DNA from: Micromonospora yangpuensis | GTDB lineage: Bacteria > Actinomycetota > Actinomycetes > Mycobacteriales > Micromonosporaceae | Assembly: GCF_900091615.1 (NCBI RefSeq) | Contig: NZ_FMIA01000002.1 | Coordinates: 2,046,001-2,110,000 of the forward strand | Length of the DNA stretch: 64,000 nt | Reading direction: 5' to 3' | Shown here: in pieces, positions 18,737 to 26,102 of the stretch | How positions within the stretch are numbered: position 1 is the stretch's first letter | How the letters are laid out: every line of letters starts with the position of its first letter | Translations under genes and position numbers: made by a program | Notes under the pieces: generated by a model | Told to the model about the DNA's origin: nothing | What the model saw: the letters and a program-made list of their open reading frames with translations, nothing else | Database searches by the model: none

Positions 18737-19516
18737 TCAGATCCGGCGCAGCACCGCCACGACCCGGCCCATGATGGTGGCGTCGTCGCCAGCGATCGGG
18801 TCGAAGGCCGGGTTCTGCGGCATCAGCCAGACGTGCCCGTCGCGTCGCCGGTAGGTCTTGACGGTCGCCTCCCCGTCCAGCATCGCGGCCACGATCTCGC
18901 CGGAGTCCGCGGTGGGCTGTTGGCGGACCACCACCCAGTCGCCGTCGCAGATCGCCGCGTCGAGCATCGAGTCGCCCTTGACCTGGAGCATGAAGACCTC
19001 GCCCTCACCCACCAGCTCGCGGGGCAGCGGGAAGACGTCCTCCACCGACTGCTCGGCGAGGATCGGCCCACCGGCGGCGATCCGGCCCAGCATCGGCACG
19101 TACGCCGGGGCGGGCCGCTGCGCCCGGGTCACCTCGTCGTCGAGGTCACCGGGGGAGCGCACGTCCACCGCGCGGGGCCGGTTGGGGTCGCGGCGCAGGA
19201 AGCCCTTCTTCTCCAGCTCCTTGAGCTGGTAGGCGACGCTGGACGGGGAGACCAGCCCGACCGCCTCACCGATCTCCCGGACGCTCGGCGGGTAACCGTG
19301 CCGCTCGACCCAGGTGCGGATGAACTCCAGGATCCGGCGCTGTCGGGCGGTCAGGTCCACGGCGGCCGGGTCGCTGAACGCGCTGACCTGGGCGACCGGC
19401 CGTACGGCGGGCTGCCCGGCCCGGCTGCGGGCCGCGCCCCGGCGCCGTGTGGCCGGCGGACCCGCCTCGGTGATCTGCTGCGGGTGCTTCTGCCGGCTGG
19501 CCCGGTCCTCGGTCAC
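18737..19516 (-). CDS. lexA: SOS repressor LexA
   Basis: Represses DNA-damage genes until RecA* triggers self-cleavage. A winged-helix DNA-binding domain ([20 protein letters not shown], then [20 protein letters not shown]) precedes the S24 peptidase domain. The cleavage site Ala-Gly is in [10 protein letters not shown], the catalytic serine in VKGDSMLDA and the lysine in [13 protein letters not shown] at 19516 follows GGGAGG by eight bases and gives 259 residues; an ATG at 19591 would lie inside an SOS-like box and is rejected. The N-terminus has an Arg/Ala-rich extension of about 50 residues before the wHTH. Two SOS boxes upstream indicate autoregulation. Confidence 0.95.
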
Positions 19517-19585
19517 GTCCGTCCTCCCTGGTCGGCGCCGGCGCTCCGGCTGTTCCTGACCGTATAGGTGAGATCCGCCATTTTC

Positions 19586-19597
19586 AAACATCTGTTC
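19586..19597. promoter_or_regulatory. Imperfect SOS box upstream of lexA
   Basis: AAACATCTGTTC differs by one base from the actinobacterial LexA site GAAC-N4-GTTC. It lies 70 bp before the lexA start and 52 bp (about five turns) from the perfect box at 19638, so two LexA dimers could bind on one DNA face. Confidence 0.55.
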
Positions 19598-19811: not shown

Positions 19812-19960
19812 TCACATGGGTGTAAGTCGCCTACAGGTTGGGTTCGACTACCGACCGCACTCCCCGCACCAGCAGCACGGCGGCGGCCATCGGCGATGGT
19901 TCGCGCCGGGCTTCCAGGTGCCCGGCGGCGCGTTCCGCGAGCGATGAAGGAGGCCGAGTG

Positions 19961-20518
19961 ATGCGCTGCCCGTACTGCCGGCACGCCGACTCTCGGGTGG
20001 TCGACTCGCGGGAGGCCGACGACGGCCAGCTGATCCGGCGGCGCCGCTCCTGCCCGGAGTGCGGCAAGCGGTTCACCACCGTCGAGGAGGCGGTGCTCGC
20101 GGTGGTCAAGCGCAGCGGGGTCACCGAGCCGTTCAGCCGTACGAAGATCATCGGTGGGGTGCGCAAGGCCTGCCAGGGGCGACCGGTCGACGAGGACTCG
20201 ATCGCCCTGCTCGCCCAGAAGGTCGAGGAGACCGTCCGGGCCAAGGGCGCCGCCGAGATCCCCAGCCACGACGTGGGGCTGGCCATCCTGGGCCCGTTGC
20301 GGGACCTGGACGAGGTGGCCTACCTGCGCTTCGCCAGCGTCTACCGGGCCTTCGACTCGCTTGCCGACTTCGAGCGGGAGATCGAGACGCTGCGCGCCGC
20401 CGCGCTCGCCCGGCAGGACGCCGCCGGACAGCCGGAGGCCCAGGGCCGGGCGGCGGCTCAGGGCGGCCCGGCCGCCCAGGGGGGCGCGGCGCCACGAGCC
20501 GCCGCCCGCCCCAGCTGA
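19961..20518 (+). CDS. nrdR: Ribonucleotide reductase repressor NrdR
   Basis: Nucleotide-sensing repressor of ribonucleotide reductase genes. The N-terminal zinc ribbon is [14 protein letters not shown] with [10 protein letters not shown] (four cysteines). The ATP-cone domain follows ([20 protein letters not shown], then [28 protein letters not shown]). The 185 residues include an Ala/Gly/Gln-rich C-terminal tail longer than usual. ATG at 19961 follows GAAGGAGG. It precedes nrdJ on the same strand by 70 bp, so NrdR probably controls its own operon through the box at 19797. Confidence 0.95.
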
Positions 20519-20588: not shown

Positions 20589-23500
20589 ATGGCGGGGGAT
20601 GGCGTGACAACCAGCCGGTCACGGACGAAGGCCGGCGCGGGGCTCAAGGTCGAGCGGGTCTGGACCACCGAAGGCGTCCACCCGTACGACGAGGTCGCCT
20701 GGGAGCGGCGCGACATCGTCATGACGAACTGGCGGGACGGCGCGATCAACTTCGAGCAGCGCGGGGTGGAGTTCCCCGAGTCCTGGAGCGTCAACGCGGC
20801 CAACATCGTCACCACCAAGTACTTCCGGGGCGCGGTGGGCACCCCGGAGCGGGAGTGGTCGCTCAAGCAGCTCATCGACCGGGTGGTGCACACCTACCGG
20901 GCCGCCGGTGAGCAGCACGGCTACTTCACCACCCCCGCCGACGCCGAACTCTTCGAGCACGAGCTGACCTGGATGCTGCTGCACCAGGTGTTCAGCTTCA
21001 ACTCCCCGGTCTGGTTCAACGTCGGCACGCCGTCGCCACAGCAGGTCAGCGCGTGTTTTATCCTCGCCGTGGACGACTCGATGGACTCGATCCTCGACTG
21101 GTACAAGGAAGAGGGGTTGATCTTCAAGGGTGGTTCCGGCTCCGGGGTCAACCTCTCCCGGATCCGCTCCTCCCGGGAGCTGCTCTCCTCCGGCGGCACC
21201 GCCTCCGGCCCGGTCAGCTTCATGCGTGGCGCGGACGCCAGCGCCGGCACCATAAAGTCCGGTGGGGCGACCCGGCGGGCGGCCAAGATGGTCATCCTCG
21301 ACGTGGACCACCCGGACATCGAGGAGTTCGTGGTCACCAAGGCGCGCGAGGAGGACAAGATCCGCGCGCTGCGCGACGCCGGGTTCGACATGGACCTCGG
21401 CGGCTCGGACATCGTCAGCGTGCAGTACCAGAACGCCAACAACTCGGTCCGGGTCTCCGACGAGTTCATGCGGGCCGTCGACGGCGGCACCGGCTTCGAC
21501 CTGCGCGGCCGGCTCGACGGCGCGGTGATCGACACCGTCGACGCCAAGGGGCTGTTCCGCTCCATCGCCCAGGCAGCCTGGGAGTGCGCCGACCCCGGCC
21601 TGCAGTACGACGACACCATCAACGACTGGCACACCTGCCCGGAAACCGGACGAATCACCGCAAGTAATCCTTGCAGTGAGTACCTGCACCTGGACAACTC
21701 GTCCTGCAACCTGGCCTCGCTGAACCTCATGAAGTTCCTGCGGGCCGACGGTGGCTTCGAGGTGGAGAAGTTCGTCCGCTCCGTCGAGTTCGTCATCACC
21801 GCCATGGACATCTCGATCTGTTTCGCCGACTTCCCGACCGAGAAGATCGGCGAGACCACCCGGGCCTACCGGCAGCTCGGCATCGGGTACGCCAACCTCG
21901 GCGCGCTGCTGATGGCCTCCGGCCTGCCGTACGACTCCGAGCAGGGGCGTTCGGTGGCCGCCGCGATCACCTCGCTGATGACCGGCACCGCGTACCGCCG
22001 CTCGGCGGAGCTGGCCGGCATCGTCGGCGCGTACGAGGGGTACGCCCGCAACGCCGAGCCGCACAAGCGGGTGATGCGCAAGCACGCCGCCGCCAACGAC
22101 GAGATCAAGCCCGCCGGTACGGTGGCCACCGCGATCGCCCGGGAGGCCACGAAGCAGTGGACCCAGGGCAACAAGCTCGGCGACAAGTTCGGCTGGCGCA
22201 ACTCCCAGGCCGCGGTACTGGCGCCGACCGGCTGCCTGACCGCCGACACCATGGTGACCACCGATCGCGGGTTGGTCCGCCTCGGTGAGCTCGGTGACGT
22301 CTACGGCGACCGCTGGCAGGACCTGGACCTGCAGGTCTCCACGGACGAGGGGGCCCGTACGGCGACGAAGTTCTTCGTCAACGGTGAGGAGCCGACCCGG
22401 CGGATCGTGACCGACGGCGGTTACCGGATCCAGGGCACCCTGGCCCACCGGATCAAGGTCGTCGAGCCGGAGTCCGGCGCGTGGGTGTGGAAGCGGATGG
22501 CCGAGGTCGCCGAGGGTGACCTGGTGCCGATCCAGCTCGGCACGCTGGTGGGCGAGCCCCGCCGGGTGCCGCTGCCCGTGCTCGACCAGGCGTACTACAC
22601 CGACGACCGTCGGCTCTACGTCCCGGACGCCGTCGACACCGAGCTTGCCGAACTCGTCGGCTACTTCATGGGCGACGGCAGTCTGCACGCCAAGGGCCTC
22701 CGGTTCTGCGTGGCCGACACGGACCTCGACGTGGTCGAGCGGCTCCGGGTGCTCGGCAAGGGTCTGTTCGGTCTGGAGCCGGTGGTCGCCGCGCAGGCCG
22801 GCTACCAGGAGGTCAGCTTCCACTCGGTTCGGCTGGCCCGGTGGTGGCAGACGGCCGGGTTCGCCAAGACACTGCCCGGCGCAGACCACTCCGGCAAGGG
22901 CTGGACTCCCCAGGTGCCGTCGGCGCTGCTGGAGACCAACGACGCCGGCGTCTACGGGGCGTTCCTGCGGGGCCTCTTCGAGGCCGACGGTACGGTGCTC
23001 GGCGGCGTACCGTCGATGTCCACCTCCACCGAGAGCTTCGCGGCCGAGGTCCGTACCCTGCTGTTGACGCTCGGGATGGCCACGACCACCCGGCGGACGA
23101 TCAGCGGCCTGGGCTCCGAGGTCTGGCAGGTGCGGCTGCGCAACACCGCGCACGCGATCGCCTTCGACGAGGTCGTCGGCTTCGTCGGTGCCCGCAAGGG
23201 CGACCTGGTCACGTCCGACATGGCACAGAGCGCCAACCGGGACCGGATCCACCTGCCGGCTGCGGTGTGGGATCTGCTGGTGCCGGCCGGTCACGAGCTG
23301 CGCCCGGCGGTCGTCCAGTCGCTGCGCAAGACCGGCGGCGTGCCCCGGGCGGTGGCGCTGCGGGTGTTCGCCGAGACCGGCGACGACCGGCTCGGTCACG
23401 CCCTCGACTACCTCTTCGAGCAGGTCGCGGTGAACGAGGACGGCGGGGTCCAGCCGACCTACGACCTCTCCGTACCGGCGAACGTCACCTACGTCGCGGG

Positions 23501-26102
23501 TGGTTTCGTCAGCCACAACACCATCGGCCTGATGATGGACTGTGACACCACCGGCGTCGAGCCCGATCTGGCGCTTGTCAAGTTCAAGAAGCTGGTCGGC
23601 GGCGGCTCGATGCAGATCGTCAACCAGACCGTGCCGCGTGCCCTGCGCAGCATCGGCTACCCCGAGGAGCAGGTCGAGGCGATCGTCGAGCACATCGCCG
23701 ACCACGGTCACGTGGTGGACGCCCCCGGCCTCAAGCCGGAGCACTACCCGGTCTTCGACTGTGCGATGGGCGAGCGGTCCATCGCCCCGATGGGCCACGT
23801 GCGGATGATGGCGGCGGTGCAGCCGTTCATCTCGGGGGCCATCTCGAAGTGCGTCGTCGGGGAGACCCTGGTGGCCTCCGGGGACGGGCTCGTCCGGATG
23901 GGCAGTCTCTACCAGGGCGAGGCGGAGGACACCTTCCGGTCGGAGTTCCTGAAGATCTCCTCCCTGGACGGTGACCGTAAGACCGACGCGTTCTACTACG
24001 GCGGCGTGCGTCCGGTGCGGACTGCCACGCTCCGTTCCGGGCACTCGGTGACCGGCACGTACCCGCACCGACTGCTCACCGCCGGTGATGGCGGACTGGT
24101 CTGGAAGACCCTGGGCGAGCTTCAGCCGGGTGACCAGGTAGCCACCCAGTACGGCGCCGACCTGTGGTCGACCGTCCCGGCGAGCCTGCGTGACGTGGTG
24201 ACCTCCCGGTCCTATGGGAACCAGAGGTCGGTCACGCTGCCGGGGGAGATGACGGAGGAATTGGCGCTGCTGCTCGGTGCCTATGCCGCCGAGGGGCACA
24301 CCAGCCGCAGCAACTGGACGATCACCATCACCAATTCCGTCGACTCGGTGCTGGAGCGGATCCAGGCAGCCTGGCAGTCGGTGTTCGGGCTGACCGCCCG
24401 GATCGACCGCCAACCCGGCAAGTGCCCGGGGGTCGTCGTGTCGTCCAAGACGGTCGTGGAGTTCCTGACGGAACTCGGTTGTGGCTCGCGGGCATCCCAT
24501 AAGCGGATCCCGGACGCGGTGCTGCGTTCGCCCCGCGCCATGGTGCTGGCCTTCCTGCGCGGGCTGGCGCTCGACGCGTACGTGACGACGGCGACCGCGC
24601 CGAAGTGGGCGATCTGTCTGGACAGCCCGGCGCTGCTGGACGACCTGCAGGCCGTGTTGACCAATCTCGGTGTCGTGCACGGCCGGGTGAGCAAGTTCAA
24701 CCCGGCGTACGGCAAGTCGTACGACGAGGTCTACGCCGCCGGCTACCAGGGGCAGCTCCTGGTGAGCATGGTGCCGTTCCTGGAGCCGGAGAAGGCGGTC
24801 GCCGCCGCGCGTTACCTCGCACAGTCCTACGGCACGGGGACGGCGGATGTCGTGCCCGGCATCAGCGGGCGGGACCTGTACGACCTGATTCCGGCCGGAA
24901 AGCCGGGCCGGGGCGGCATCCGTGGCGACCGTTCGAGCTTCGCGTTCCTGCTCGACAAGCGCACCCAGCACGTCACCCGTCGTACCGTGGAACGGGTGGC
25001 CTCCCTCGACGGTGTGGTACTGCCGGGATGGCTGCGCCAGGTGTTGGACGGCAATCTGCACTTCTCGCCCGTCGACTCCGTGGTGGATGCCGGTGAGCGG
25101 GAGGTGTACGACCTCTCGGTGCCGGAGACCCACGCCTTCGTGGCGAACGGCATCATGAACCACAACACGGTCAATATGCCGGAGCAGGCGACCGTCGAGG
25201 ACGTCGAGAAGATCTACTTCGAGGGCTGGAAGCTCGGCCTGAAGGCGCTGGCGATCTACCGGGACAACTGCAAGGTCGGCCAGCCGCTGTCGGTGGCCAA
25301 GCCGAACAAGGCGGTGGTCGCGGCGGCGGTGGAGGCCGCCGTCGAGGCCGCGGTGGCGGAGAAGGCCGTCGAGAAGGTCGTCGAGTACCGTCCGGTGCGC
25401 AAGCGGCTGCCGAAGAAGCGCCCGTCGCAGACGGTCAGCTTCTCCGTCGGCGGTGCCGAGGGGTACCTCACCGCGTCGTCGTACCCCGACGACGGCCTCG
25501 GCGAGGTCTTCCTCAAGATGTCGAAGCAGGGCTCGACGCTGGCCGGGGTGATGGACGCCTTCTCGGTGGCCATCTCCATCGGCCTGCAGTACGGCGTCCC
25601 GCTGGAGACGTACGTCAGCAAGTTCACCAACATGCGGTTCGAGCCGGCGGGCATGACCGACGACCCGGACGTGCGGATGGCCGCCTCGGTGATGGACTAC
25701 ATCTTCCGCCGGCTGGCCCTGGACTTCCTGCCGTACGACCGCCGTGCCGAACTGGGCATCTTCACCGCCAAGGAGCGGGCCGCCCAGCTGCGGGCCGAGG
25801 CGGAGGCGGAGGCCGGTGGCGCCGACCTCACCGCCATGGCCGCCTCGGCTCCGGTCGAGGCGCCCGAGACCAAGGCCGACGTGGCCGGGCCGGTCGGCCC
25901 GATCGCCCAGCCGGCCCTGGAGACCGCCGACGTCGCCGCCGCCAAGCCGGCGCCGGCGGTCGGCTCCAGCACCGAGCTGCTGGAGGCCGTGATCGGCAAG
26001 GCCGCCGACGCACCGCTCTGCTTCACCTGCGGTACGAAGATGCGCCCGGCCGGTAGCTGCTACGTCTGTGAGGGCTGCGGCTCCACCAGCGGCTGCAGCT
26101 GA
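20589..26102 (+). CDS. nrdJ: B12-dependent class II ribonucleotide reductase NrdJ with two inteins
   Basis: Reduces ribonucleotides to deoxyribonucleotides with adenosylcobalamin. The precursor is 1,837 residues. Removing inteins of 429 and 439 residues leaves 969, a normal actinobacterial NrdJ length. Active-site marks are QVSACFILAVDDSMDS and SSCNLASLNL (redox pair) and the radical cysteine motif NPCSEYLHL. The nucleotide loop GGATRRAAKMV and a C-terminal cysteine cluster (CFTCGTKMRPAGSCYVC) are also present; the latter probably shuttles electrons. ATG at 20589 was chosen; GTG 20604 is an alternative. Without splicing the enzyme should be inactive, because both inteins interrupt conserved loops (APTG/TIGLMM and GAISK/TVNMPE). 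Confidence 0.95.
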   Translation: MAGDGVTTSRSRTKAGAGLKVERVWTTEGVHPYDEVAWERRDIVMTNWRDGAINFEQRGVEFPESWSVNAANIVTTKYFRGAVGTPEREWSLKQLIDRVVHTYRAAGEQHGYFTTPADAELFEHELTWMLLHQVFSFNSPVWFNVGTPSPQQVSACFILAVDDSMDSILDWYKEEGLIFKGGSGSGVNLSRIRSSRELLSSGGTASGPVSFMRGADASAGTIKSGGATRRAAKMVILDVDHPDIEEFVVTKAREEDKIRALRDAGFDMDLGGSDIVSVQYQNANNSVRVSDEFMRAVDGGTGFDLRGRLDGAVIDTVDAKGLFRSIAQAAWECADPGLQYDDTINDWHTCPETGRITASNPCSEYLHLDNSSCNLASLNLMKFLRADGGFEVEKFVRSVEFVITAMDISICFADFPTEKIGETTRAYRQLGIGYANLGALLMASGLPYDSEQGRSVAAAITSLMTGTAYRRSAELAGIVGAYEGYARNAEPHKRVMRKHAAANDEIKPAGTVATAIAREATKQWTQGNKLGDKFGWRNSQAAVLAPTGCLTADTMVTTDRGLVRLGELGDVYGDRWQDLDLQVSTDEGARTATKFFVNGEEPTRRIVTDGGYRIQGTLAHRIKVVEPESGAWVWKRMAEVAEGDLVPIQLGTLVGEPRRVPLPVLDQAYYTDDRRLYVPDAVDTELAELVGYFMGDGSLHAKGLRFCVADTDLDVVERLRVLGKGLFGLEPVVAAQAGYQEVSFHSVRLARWWQTAGFAKTLPGADHSGKGWTPQVPSALLETNDAGVYGAFLRGLFEADGTVLGGVPSMSTSTESFAAEVRTLLLTLGMATTTRRTISGLGSEVWQVRLRNTAHAIAFDEVVGFVGARKGDLVTSDMAQSANRDRIHLPAAVWDLLVPAGHELRPAVVQSLRKTGGVPRAVALRVFAETGDDRLGHALDYLFEQVAVNEDGGVQPTYDLSVPANVTYVAGGFVSHNTIGLMMDCDTTGVEPDLALVKFKKLVGGGSMQIVNQTVPRALRSIGYPEEQVEAIVEHIADHGHVVDAPGLKPEHYPVFDCAMGERSIAPMGHVRMMAAVQPFISGAISKCVVGETLVASGDGLVRMGSLYQGEAEDTFRSEFLKISSLDGDRKTDAFYYGGVRPVRTATLRSGHSVTGTYPHRLLTAGDGGLVWKTLGELQPGDQVATQYGADLWSTVPASLRDVVTSRSYGNQRSVTLPGEMTEELALLLGAYAAEGHTSRSNWTITITNSVDSVLERIQAAWQSVFGLTARIDRQPGKCPGVVVSSKTVVEFLTELGCGSRASHKRIPDAVLRSPRAMVLAFLRGLALDAYVTTATAPKWAICLDSPALLDDLQAVLTNLGVVHGRVSKFNPAYGKSYDEVYAAGYQGQLLVSMVPFLEPEKAVAAARYLAQSYGTGTADVVPGISGRDLYDLIPAGKPGRGGIRGDRSSFAFLLDKRTQHVTRRTVERVASLDGVVLPGWLRQVLDGNLHFSPVDSVVDAGEREVYDLSVPETHAFVANGIMNHNTVNMPEQATVEDVEKIYFEGWKLGLKALAIYRDNCKVGQPLSVAKPNKAVVAAAVEAAVEAAVAEKAVEKVVEYRPVRKRLPKKRPSQTVSFSVGGAEGYLTASSYPDDGLGEVFLKMSKQGSTLAGVMDAFSVAISIGLQYGVPLETYVSKFTNMRFEPAGMTDDPDVRMAASVMDYIFRRLALDFLPYDRRAELGIFTAKERAAQLRAEAEAEAGGADLTAMAASAPVEAPETKADVAGPVGPIAQPALETADVAAAKPAPAVGSSTELLEAVIGKAADAPLCFTCGTKMRPAGSCYVCEGCGSTSGCS
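22233..23519 (+). other. NrdJ intein 1 with LAGLIDADG endonuclease (in-frame)
   Basis: A 429-residue protein intron between APTG and TIGLMM of NrdJ. It starts CLTADTMVTT (nucleophile Cys1) and has the block B histidine in TLAH (residues 69-72). It ends YVAGGFVSHN, with His-Asn as the last pair, and the next extein residue is Thr. Two LAGLIDADG motifs, LVGYFMGDG (141-149) and LRGLFEADG, both keep the catalytic aspartate, so the homing endonuclease looks intact. Splicing residues are complete. Codon use is high GC, indicating long residence in this lineage. Confidence 0.93.
23850..25166 (+). other. NrdJ intein 2 with degenerate endonuclease (in-frame)
   Basis: A 439-residue protein intron between GAISK and TVNMPE. 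It starts CVVGETLVAS, has block B TYPH (70-73), block F VYDLSVPETHAFVANG and ends MNHN; the +1 residue is Thr. All splicing residues are present. The endonuclease motifs are weakened: LLGAYAAEG keeps an acidic residue (Glu), but the second, LRGLALDAY, has Ala where the metal-binding acid belongs. Homing is therefore probably lost while splicing is kept. Only 110 extein residues separate the two inteins. Confidence 0.92.

Follow-up and report, generated by a model that had tools for sequence, protein, structure and literature searches.

The window analysed here, a stretch of 64,000 nucleotides (nt) from the genome of Micromonospora yangpuensis, contains nrdJ, a gene for a class II (B12-dependent) ribonucleotide reductase (RNR) that is interrupted by two inteins, and the state of the homing endonuclease in the second of these is the main concern of this analysis. 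The nrdJ precursor (20589..26102, on the plus strand, as are all features of the gene given below) starts with ATG and comprises 1837 amino acids (aa), as defined by its open reading frame (ORF) and by profile matches, which include NF005122 (1584 bits, cut-off 859) and TIGR02504 (551 bits, cut-off 400). An N-extein of 548 aa (20589..22232), which is continuous in intein-free relatives, is followed by intein 1 (22233..23519; 429 aa, residues 549-977) at host site 548 (APTG/TIGL), by a middle extein of 110 aa between the inteins (23520..23849), by intein 2 (23850..25166; 439 aa, residues 1088-1526) at host site 658 (GAISK/TVNM), and by a C-extein of 311 aa with the stop codon (25167..26102). 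Removal of both inteins leaves a mature NrdJ of 969 aa. The same architecture had been proposed by a first-pass annotation made from the sequence alone, and the ORF and the Pfam and NCBIfam profiles agree with it.

Matches to Hint-type and LAGLIDADG profiles, which the annotation had named as a check on its proposal, were found for the whole protein: Pfam Intein_splicing (8.8e-21, two stretches) and LAGLIDADG_3 (6.2e-25) lie far beyond chance, and NCBIfam intein_Nterm and intein_Cterm each cover two stretches. When Intein_splicing was run alone across the genome, only the end of intein 2 was matched, below the cut-off. Both inteins contain the residues characteristic of class 1 (Hint) inteins, namely Cys1, the block B T..H (GTLAH in intein 1), the block F Asp (accompanied in intein 2 by the F-block His), the terminal His-Asn, and a Thr at position +1. 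The junctions read APTG/C...HN/TIGLMM for intein 1 and GAISK/C...HN/TVNMPE for intein 2, exactly where the annotation had placed them. Among close relatives there are nrdJ alleles that lack the inserts and show the same extein uninterrupted, as expected of in-frame insertions, and the insert boundaries are therefore exact. A chance ORF or a false insert was ruled out by the profile matches and these empty alleles. Both inserts are full-length class 1 inteins, predicted from their intact motifs and the intein-free alleles to splice out of NrdJ. They share 26% identity over their whole length (E 2e-18), and are thus old relatives rather than products of a recent duplication. The F-block His is missing in intein 1 and in the other 15 aligned inteins of site 548, where Val (15/16) or Thr (1/16) was found.

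The second LAGLIDADG motif of intein 2

Each intein appears to carry a LAGLIDADG homing endonuclease domain. In intein 1, both motifs of such a DOD endonuclease have kept their acids, as annotated: Asp148 in GYFMGDG (22674..22676) and Asp252 in GLFEADG (22986..22988). In intein 2, the first motif is canonical and contains Glu148 (AYAAEG, 24291..24293), and a KRIP stretch contains Lys218 (24501..24503), which we take to be the block D lysine. The inteins of site 548 have Pro at the position of Lys218 in 16/16 cases. The second motif of intein 2 (GLALDAYV) was read by the first-pass annotation as having Ala at the position of the acid (Ala243, 24576..24578), and the endonuclease was accordingly called degenerate. 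Ala243 takes that position in an ungapped reading only; profile alignments and a structural model place Asp242 (24573..24575) there.

In a wider comparison, 82 sequences were aligned, comprising 27 inteins from site 658, 52 inteins from other sites, and three free-standing endonuclease domains discussed below. From sites 155, 361, 548 and 658, only inteins with Cys1, a terminal Asn or Gln and a length of 330 aa or more were kept, six viral inteins of other genes were added as controls, and mini-inteins, inteins truncated at a locus end, and L046 (from the same genome as G043, the other Micromonospora carrier of intein 2) were left out. For L080, a pattern was used to define where the intein begins, and the RNR-gene context of L070, L080 and L084 was read from their flanks. 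The site-658 inteins come from genomes across Actinomycetota and from three viral contigs. As checked by pattern, a second motif of the form G[LM]xL[DEG][AGS], one residue short, is present in 27/27 of them, and canonical spacing in 52/52 inteins from other sites. Recent decay of intein 2 was ruled out, since the short motif is family-wide.

Residue 242 is acidic in 25/27 site-658 inteins (Asp in 24 and Glu in L119), and residue 243 is Ala in 22, Gly in four and Ser in one, so that Ala243 behaves like the Gly of a 'DG' pair. A profile built from the 52 other-site inteins alone assigned the window's Asp242 to the catalytic column (posterior ~0.9), and profile alignments to the solved structures 7qss, 7qsu and 2cw7 did likewise. 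In an AlphaFold2 model of intein 2 (mean predicted local distance difference test score, pLDDT, 70.5), the two helices end at Glu148 and Asp242, and the fold is that of monomeric LAGLIDADG enzymes. Taken at the level of alignment and modelling, these observations suggest that intein 2 probably keeps its second LAGLIDADG acid, Asp242. An AlphaFold2 model of L084 was also considered as an arbiter of the motif register and was rejected as too poor to decide.

Occupancy, selection and movement

The distribution of nrdJ inteins was examined in 160 genomes of the genus. Besides the window, 40 nrdJ loci were fetched and studied in detail, comprising 26 suspects (24 of them confirmed as carriers) and 14 loci that seemed empty, and the other 119 genomes were scored empty from the tblastn match pattern and open frame alone. 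Four intein sites were identified in host numbering, with carriers in 19 genomes at site 155 (SA/CFIL), three at 361 (NP/CSE), nine at 548 (APTG/TIGL) and two at 658 (GAISK/TVN). At least one nrdJ intein is present in 25/160 genomes and none in 135/160; a comparison of this kind had been proposed in the annotation, and the inteins proved to be present in some relatives and absent in most. Site 155 alone is occupied in 14 genomes and site 548 alone in five; two genomes combine 155 and 548, and one each has 548+658 (the window), 155+361, 155+361+548, and 155+361+658. The host supplies a Cys as the +1 residue for sites 155 and 361 (Cys 156 and Cys 362, respectively), and these are presumably the RNR active-site cysteines. 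Intein 2 was found in the genus only in the window and G043, which is far from the fixation suggested by the annotation, and an intein-2 profile search of 300 genomes of the family revealed a third carrier (G1010) in another genus.

Several further observations were made in this survey. In L049 and L050, site 155 holds mini-inteins of 143 and 139 aa, respectively, whereas the intein at site 658 is full-length, so that a single gene has retained the endonuclease at 658 and lost it at 155. The nrdJ gene of G086 (L017) is split, with residues 1-82 and 79 onward matching in different frames, which reflects either a sequencing error or a broken gene. Weaker intein matches (~30% identity) in frames of ~1260 aa occur elsewhere in the genomes of relatives (G126:C1:1491538, G043:C18:214084, and others) and probably represent other intein-bearing genes. 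Among phage records, 65 matched, all below 60% identity; 30 were listed at 21%-30%, many of them annotated as helicase, and no NrdJ was found among the names shown. No literature on Micromonospora inteins of this subject was found by title, a weak absence given the partial coverage.

With regard to selection, the ratio of nonsynonymous to synonymous divergence (dN/dS, omega) of the intein 2 DOD domain was 0.146 (0.071-0.232), compared with 0.142 for the extein, in one pair of genomes (G000, the window genome, and G043). The corresponding value for the intein 1 DOD domain was ~0.22 to 0.39 across eight pairs, and the domain that had been called degenerate is therefore the better conserved one. 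As estimated from that pair, purifying selection acts on the endonuclease domain of intein 2, and the domain is as slow-evolving as the enzyme itself.

The genome G043 is close to G012 (extein synonymous divergence, dS, 0.086), which has no inteins at sites 361 and 658. Because of this near relative, a recent gain is the simpler account: intein 2 was probably acquired recently by G043, with a precise loss as a possible alternative. Between G000 and G043, fourfold sites are identical at 148/173 positions in intein 2 and 266/357 in the exteins (Fisher p 0.0036); the dS ranges overlap (0.16-0.28 for the intein, 0.25-0.34 for the extein), and a later sharing of intein 2 than of the rest of the gene is therefore not secure. 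At site 361 of G043, a weak excess of six differences in 20 codons was observed, a number which 5% of windows reach. In 39 intein-free alleles, 2-6 of the 30 nt surrounding site 658 are different from those of the window, and similar target DNA is thus common.

Free-standing relatives of the endonuclease domain

Three other actinobacterial genomes (G243, G558 and G757) contain an endonuclease domain that resembles that of intein 2 but is not part of an intein. One of these copies came from a search of 394 genomes and two from a search of 396, and closer searches around G558 (101 and 66 genomes) returned only G558 and G757, with no further copies. The frame in G243 (L098, 2601-3776) lies ~80 bp after the nrdJ stop at 2517, that in G558 (L128, 1390-2604) ~280 bp after the end of the nrdJ frame, and the match in G757 (L129, 1288-2157), which contains an internal TGA, ~26 kb from nrdJ. 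Pfam detected only LAGLIDADG_3 in these copies (over the cut-off in L098 and L128, just under in L129) and no additional domain, for example a zinc finger. Neither the block B His nor blocks F-G show conservation, and the equivalents of Glu148, Lys218 and Asp242 are kept in 3/3 copies. A Hint remnant was found in another frame of L098; the length of an open frame proves little here, because GC-rich frames stay open by chance. Relative to codon position 3, positions 1+2 differ more in the free-standing copies than in intein pairs, although the overall divergence of the copies is greater as well; selection on them may thus be relaxed, or they may be decaying.

The nrdJ genes beside L098 and L128 have no intein at site 658, and that of L098 has one at 361. 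Site 658 was readable by pattern in 24/30 loci (four gave no match and two matched the wrong place). It reads SGSVSKTINMP in G243 and GAISKTVN in the other 23/24 readable loci; the reading is GAISKTVN in G757 and GAISKTCN in G558, the latter also in G1103 of the same genus, where the free-standing gene was not found. Like the WHO/HO endonucleases of yeast (PMC7282813), L098 and L128 encode an intein-like endonuclease without the C-terminal block G, downstream of the host gene. Unlike those endonucleases, the copies have no second domain (zinc finger), no duplicated 3-prime fragment of nrdJ, and no clear divergence break. No duplicated nrdJ end was found in the 5.7 kb (L098) and 7.4 kb (L150) downstream, and WHO-type homing was rejected for lack of such an end and of a clear divergence break at the site. 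No literature on free-standing intein-derived LAGLIDADG domains was found, again a weak absence given partial coverage. These copies are a lead only. It is a possible but rather doubtful idea that the site-658 inteins form a separate short-helix LAGLIDADG lineage that cuts or nicks nrdJ, and that in actinobacteria its endonuclease has escaped more than once as a separate gene beside nrdJ, in a bacterial parallel to WHO/HO.

Explanations for intein 2 and relation to known systems

Taken together, the conservation of the domain, its patchy distribution and one probable recent gain favour the view, which we hold with reasonable though limited confidence, that intein 2 belongs to a mobile lineage of inteins whose endonuclease is unusual but probably functional. 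Intein 2 is a member of an allele family at the nrdJ site GAISK/TVN and probably keeps the acid pair Glu148/Asp242; its domain may still recognise and cut (or nick) intein-free nrdJ, and the intein would then enter intein-free alleles by repair and persist through movement between species. However, several points weigh against this view. L051 and L125 have Gly at residue 242 and thus no acid, and the catalytic column holds the Asp242 equivalent in only 20/29 scored rows, with Tyr in six, Ala and Leu in one each, and a different Asp in one (L070). The alignment to the solved structure 7qst is gapped across the second motif and uninformative there. In the intein 2 model, confidence drops off at the motif (mean pLDDT 91 for residues 231-240 and 74 for 241-250), and in the L084 model (mean pLDDT 56) the helix ends at 236 and the next strand begins from Asp239, leaving the geometry of Asp242 unconfirmed. 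The 82-sequence alignment is ungapped at the motif and puts Ala243 in the acid column, as the annotation did; shortening of the helix by one residue could abolish cleavage despite the acid; the omega value rests on a single pair; and no co-conversion tract was found at site 658 between G043 and G012, with one difference in the surrounding 120 nt.

The ungapped alignment, the two relatives with no acid at 242 and the missing tract are also what speaks for the original account of a degenerate endonuclease in an intein that is perhaps fixed and no longer homes. We consider it improbable, because the same motif occurs in 27/27 inteins, including distant members of the phylum and viral contigs, the two carriers among 160 genomes are far from fixation, purifying selection acts on the domain in the tested pair, and 24 genomic copies of the site-658 intein show no reduction in size. 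Slightly more credit, within the range of the unlikely, may be given to a domain that has lost cleavage and is kept for the folding or splicing of the intein, or as a DNA- or RNA-binding regulator like WhiA, whose LAGLIDADG domain acts as a regulator; yet the conserved acids and lysine would be needless in a purely structural domain, copies without splicing blocks keep them in 3/3 cases, and the scattered occurrence is as expected of a homing element. Between these two in plausibility, and still unlikely, is movement of intein 2 only by ordinary recombination of nrdJ alleles, with no help from its own endonuclease. This would fit the few carriers and the absent tract signal, and the fourfold-site excess may mean that, by one route or another, intein 2 was exchanged more recently than the remainder of the gene; but G043 is nearly identical to its sister G012 around the insertion, which would require a very short exchanged segment, and the overlap of the dS ranges makes the time difference insecure.

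The annotation had also suggested, as an inference of its own, that splicing of one or both inteins could gate the supply of deoxynucleoside triphosphates by an essential enzyme under redox or metal stress. The presence of Cys1 in both inteins is compatible with such a switch, and one of the two DnaB inteins of M. smegmatis is reported to be inhibited by oxidants (PMC6195587). Nevertheless, this is the least probable of the explanations: 135 genomes have no nrdJ intein and hence no conserved function of this kind, and each Hint domain contains a single Cys (Cys1), so that a disulfide within the domain, as described for DnaBi1, would have no partner residue. NrdJ is indeed a class II RNR, as annotated, but its essentiality is weakened by the same genome encoding a class Ia enzyme, NrdA (an 895-aa frame) and a protein that we take from its sequence to be NrdB, behind a cobalamin riboswitch (L001:3880-4086, 89 bits, gathering score 31.5). 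Class Ia and class II RNR pairs back each other up in Streptomyces. With nrdAB in the same genome, a block of splicing alone would not stop DNA synthesis; repression of nrdAB by B12 might make the cell depend on spliced NrdJ. No Rfam riboswitch match was found at nrdJ, or elsewhere in the window, at gathering scores.

Several inteins per RNR gene are already known: they have been described in phages (PMC3653736), ~80 RNR inteins have been curated in RNRdb (PMC2795772), and three occur in Pyrococcus abyssi according to the title of a cited work. The RIR1-type RNR inteins of P. abyssi and phages thus resemble the present case in enzyme and in the presence of several per gene, and differ from it in that the host here is a Micromonospora NrdJ and the site-658 allele has a second motif one residue short. 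The new part is this short-motif family together with the free-standing copies. The closest full-length solved relatives of intein 2, by sequence and fold, are the TliVMA/PhoVMA inteins (7qss, 7qsu, 7qst) and PI-PkoII (2cw7); the second motif is longer in 7qss/7qsu and 2cw7 (IVCDGYY, FIGDGDV), and the VMA inteins reside in a V-type ATPase rather than in NrdJ. The DnaBi1 and DnaBi2 inteins of M. smegmatis likewise represent two inteins in one replication-related protein, but DnaBi1 is a class 3 intein with a cysteine disulfide toggle (PMC6195587), whereas the nrdJ inteins start with Cys1 and have no other Hint Cys.

These findings illustrate that a homing endonuclease which probably works can be taken for inactive when its motif is shifted in register by one residue. 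They also provide a family open to testing: 27 inteins that occupy the same nrdJ site and share an unusual active-site helix, a sister allele of one carrier that lacks the intein, and versions of the nuclease domain devoid of splicing blocks. The nrdJ gene of Micromonospora, whose four intein sites are occupied in varied combinations across 160 genomes, would lend itself well to the study of how inteins are gained and lost in nature, and the free-standing copies, if active, would record a step from intein to independent gene in bacteria. As for the surroundings of the locus, a gene that is presumably an nrdR-like repressor (19838..20518, plus strand) lies directly upstream of nrdJ, and upstream of both is what appears from its sequence to be a lexA-like gene (18737-19591, minus strand).
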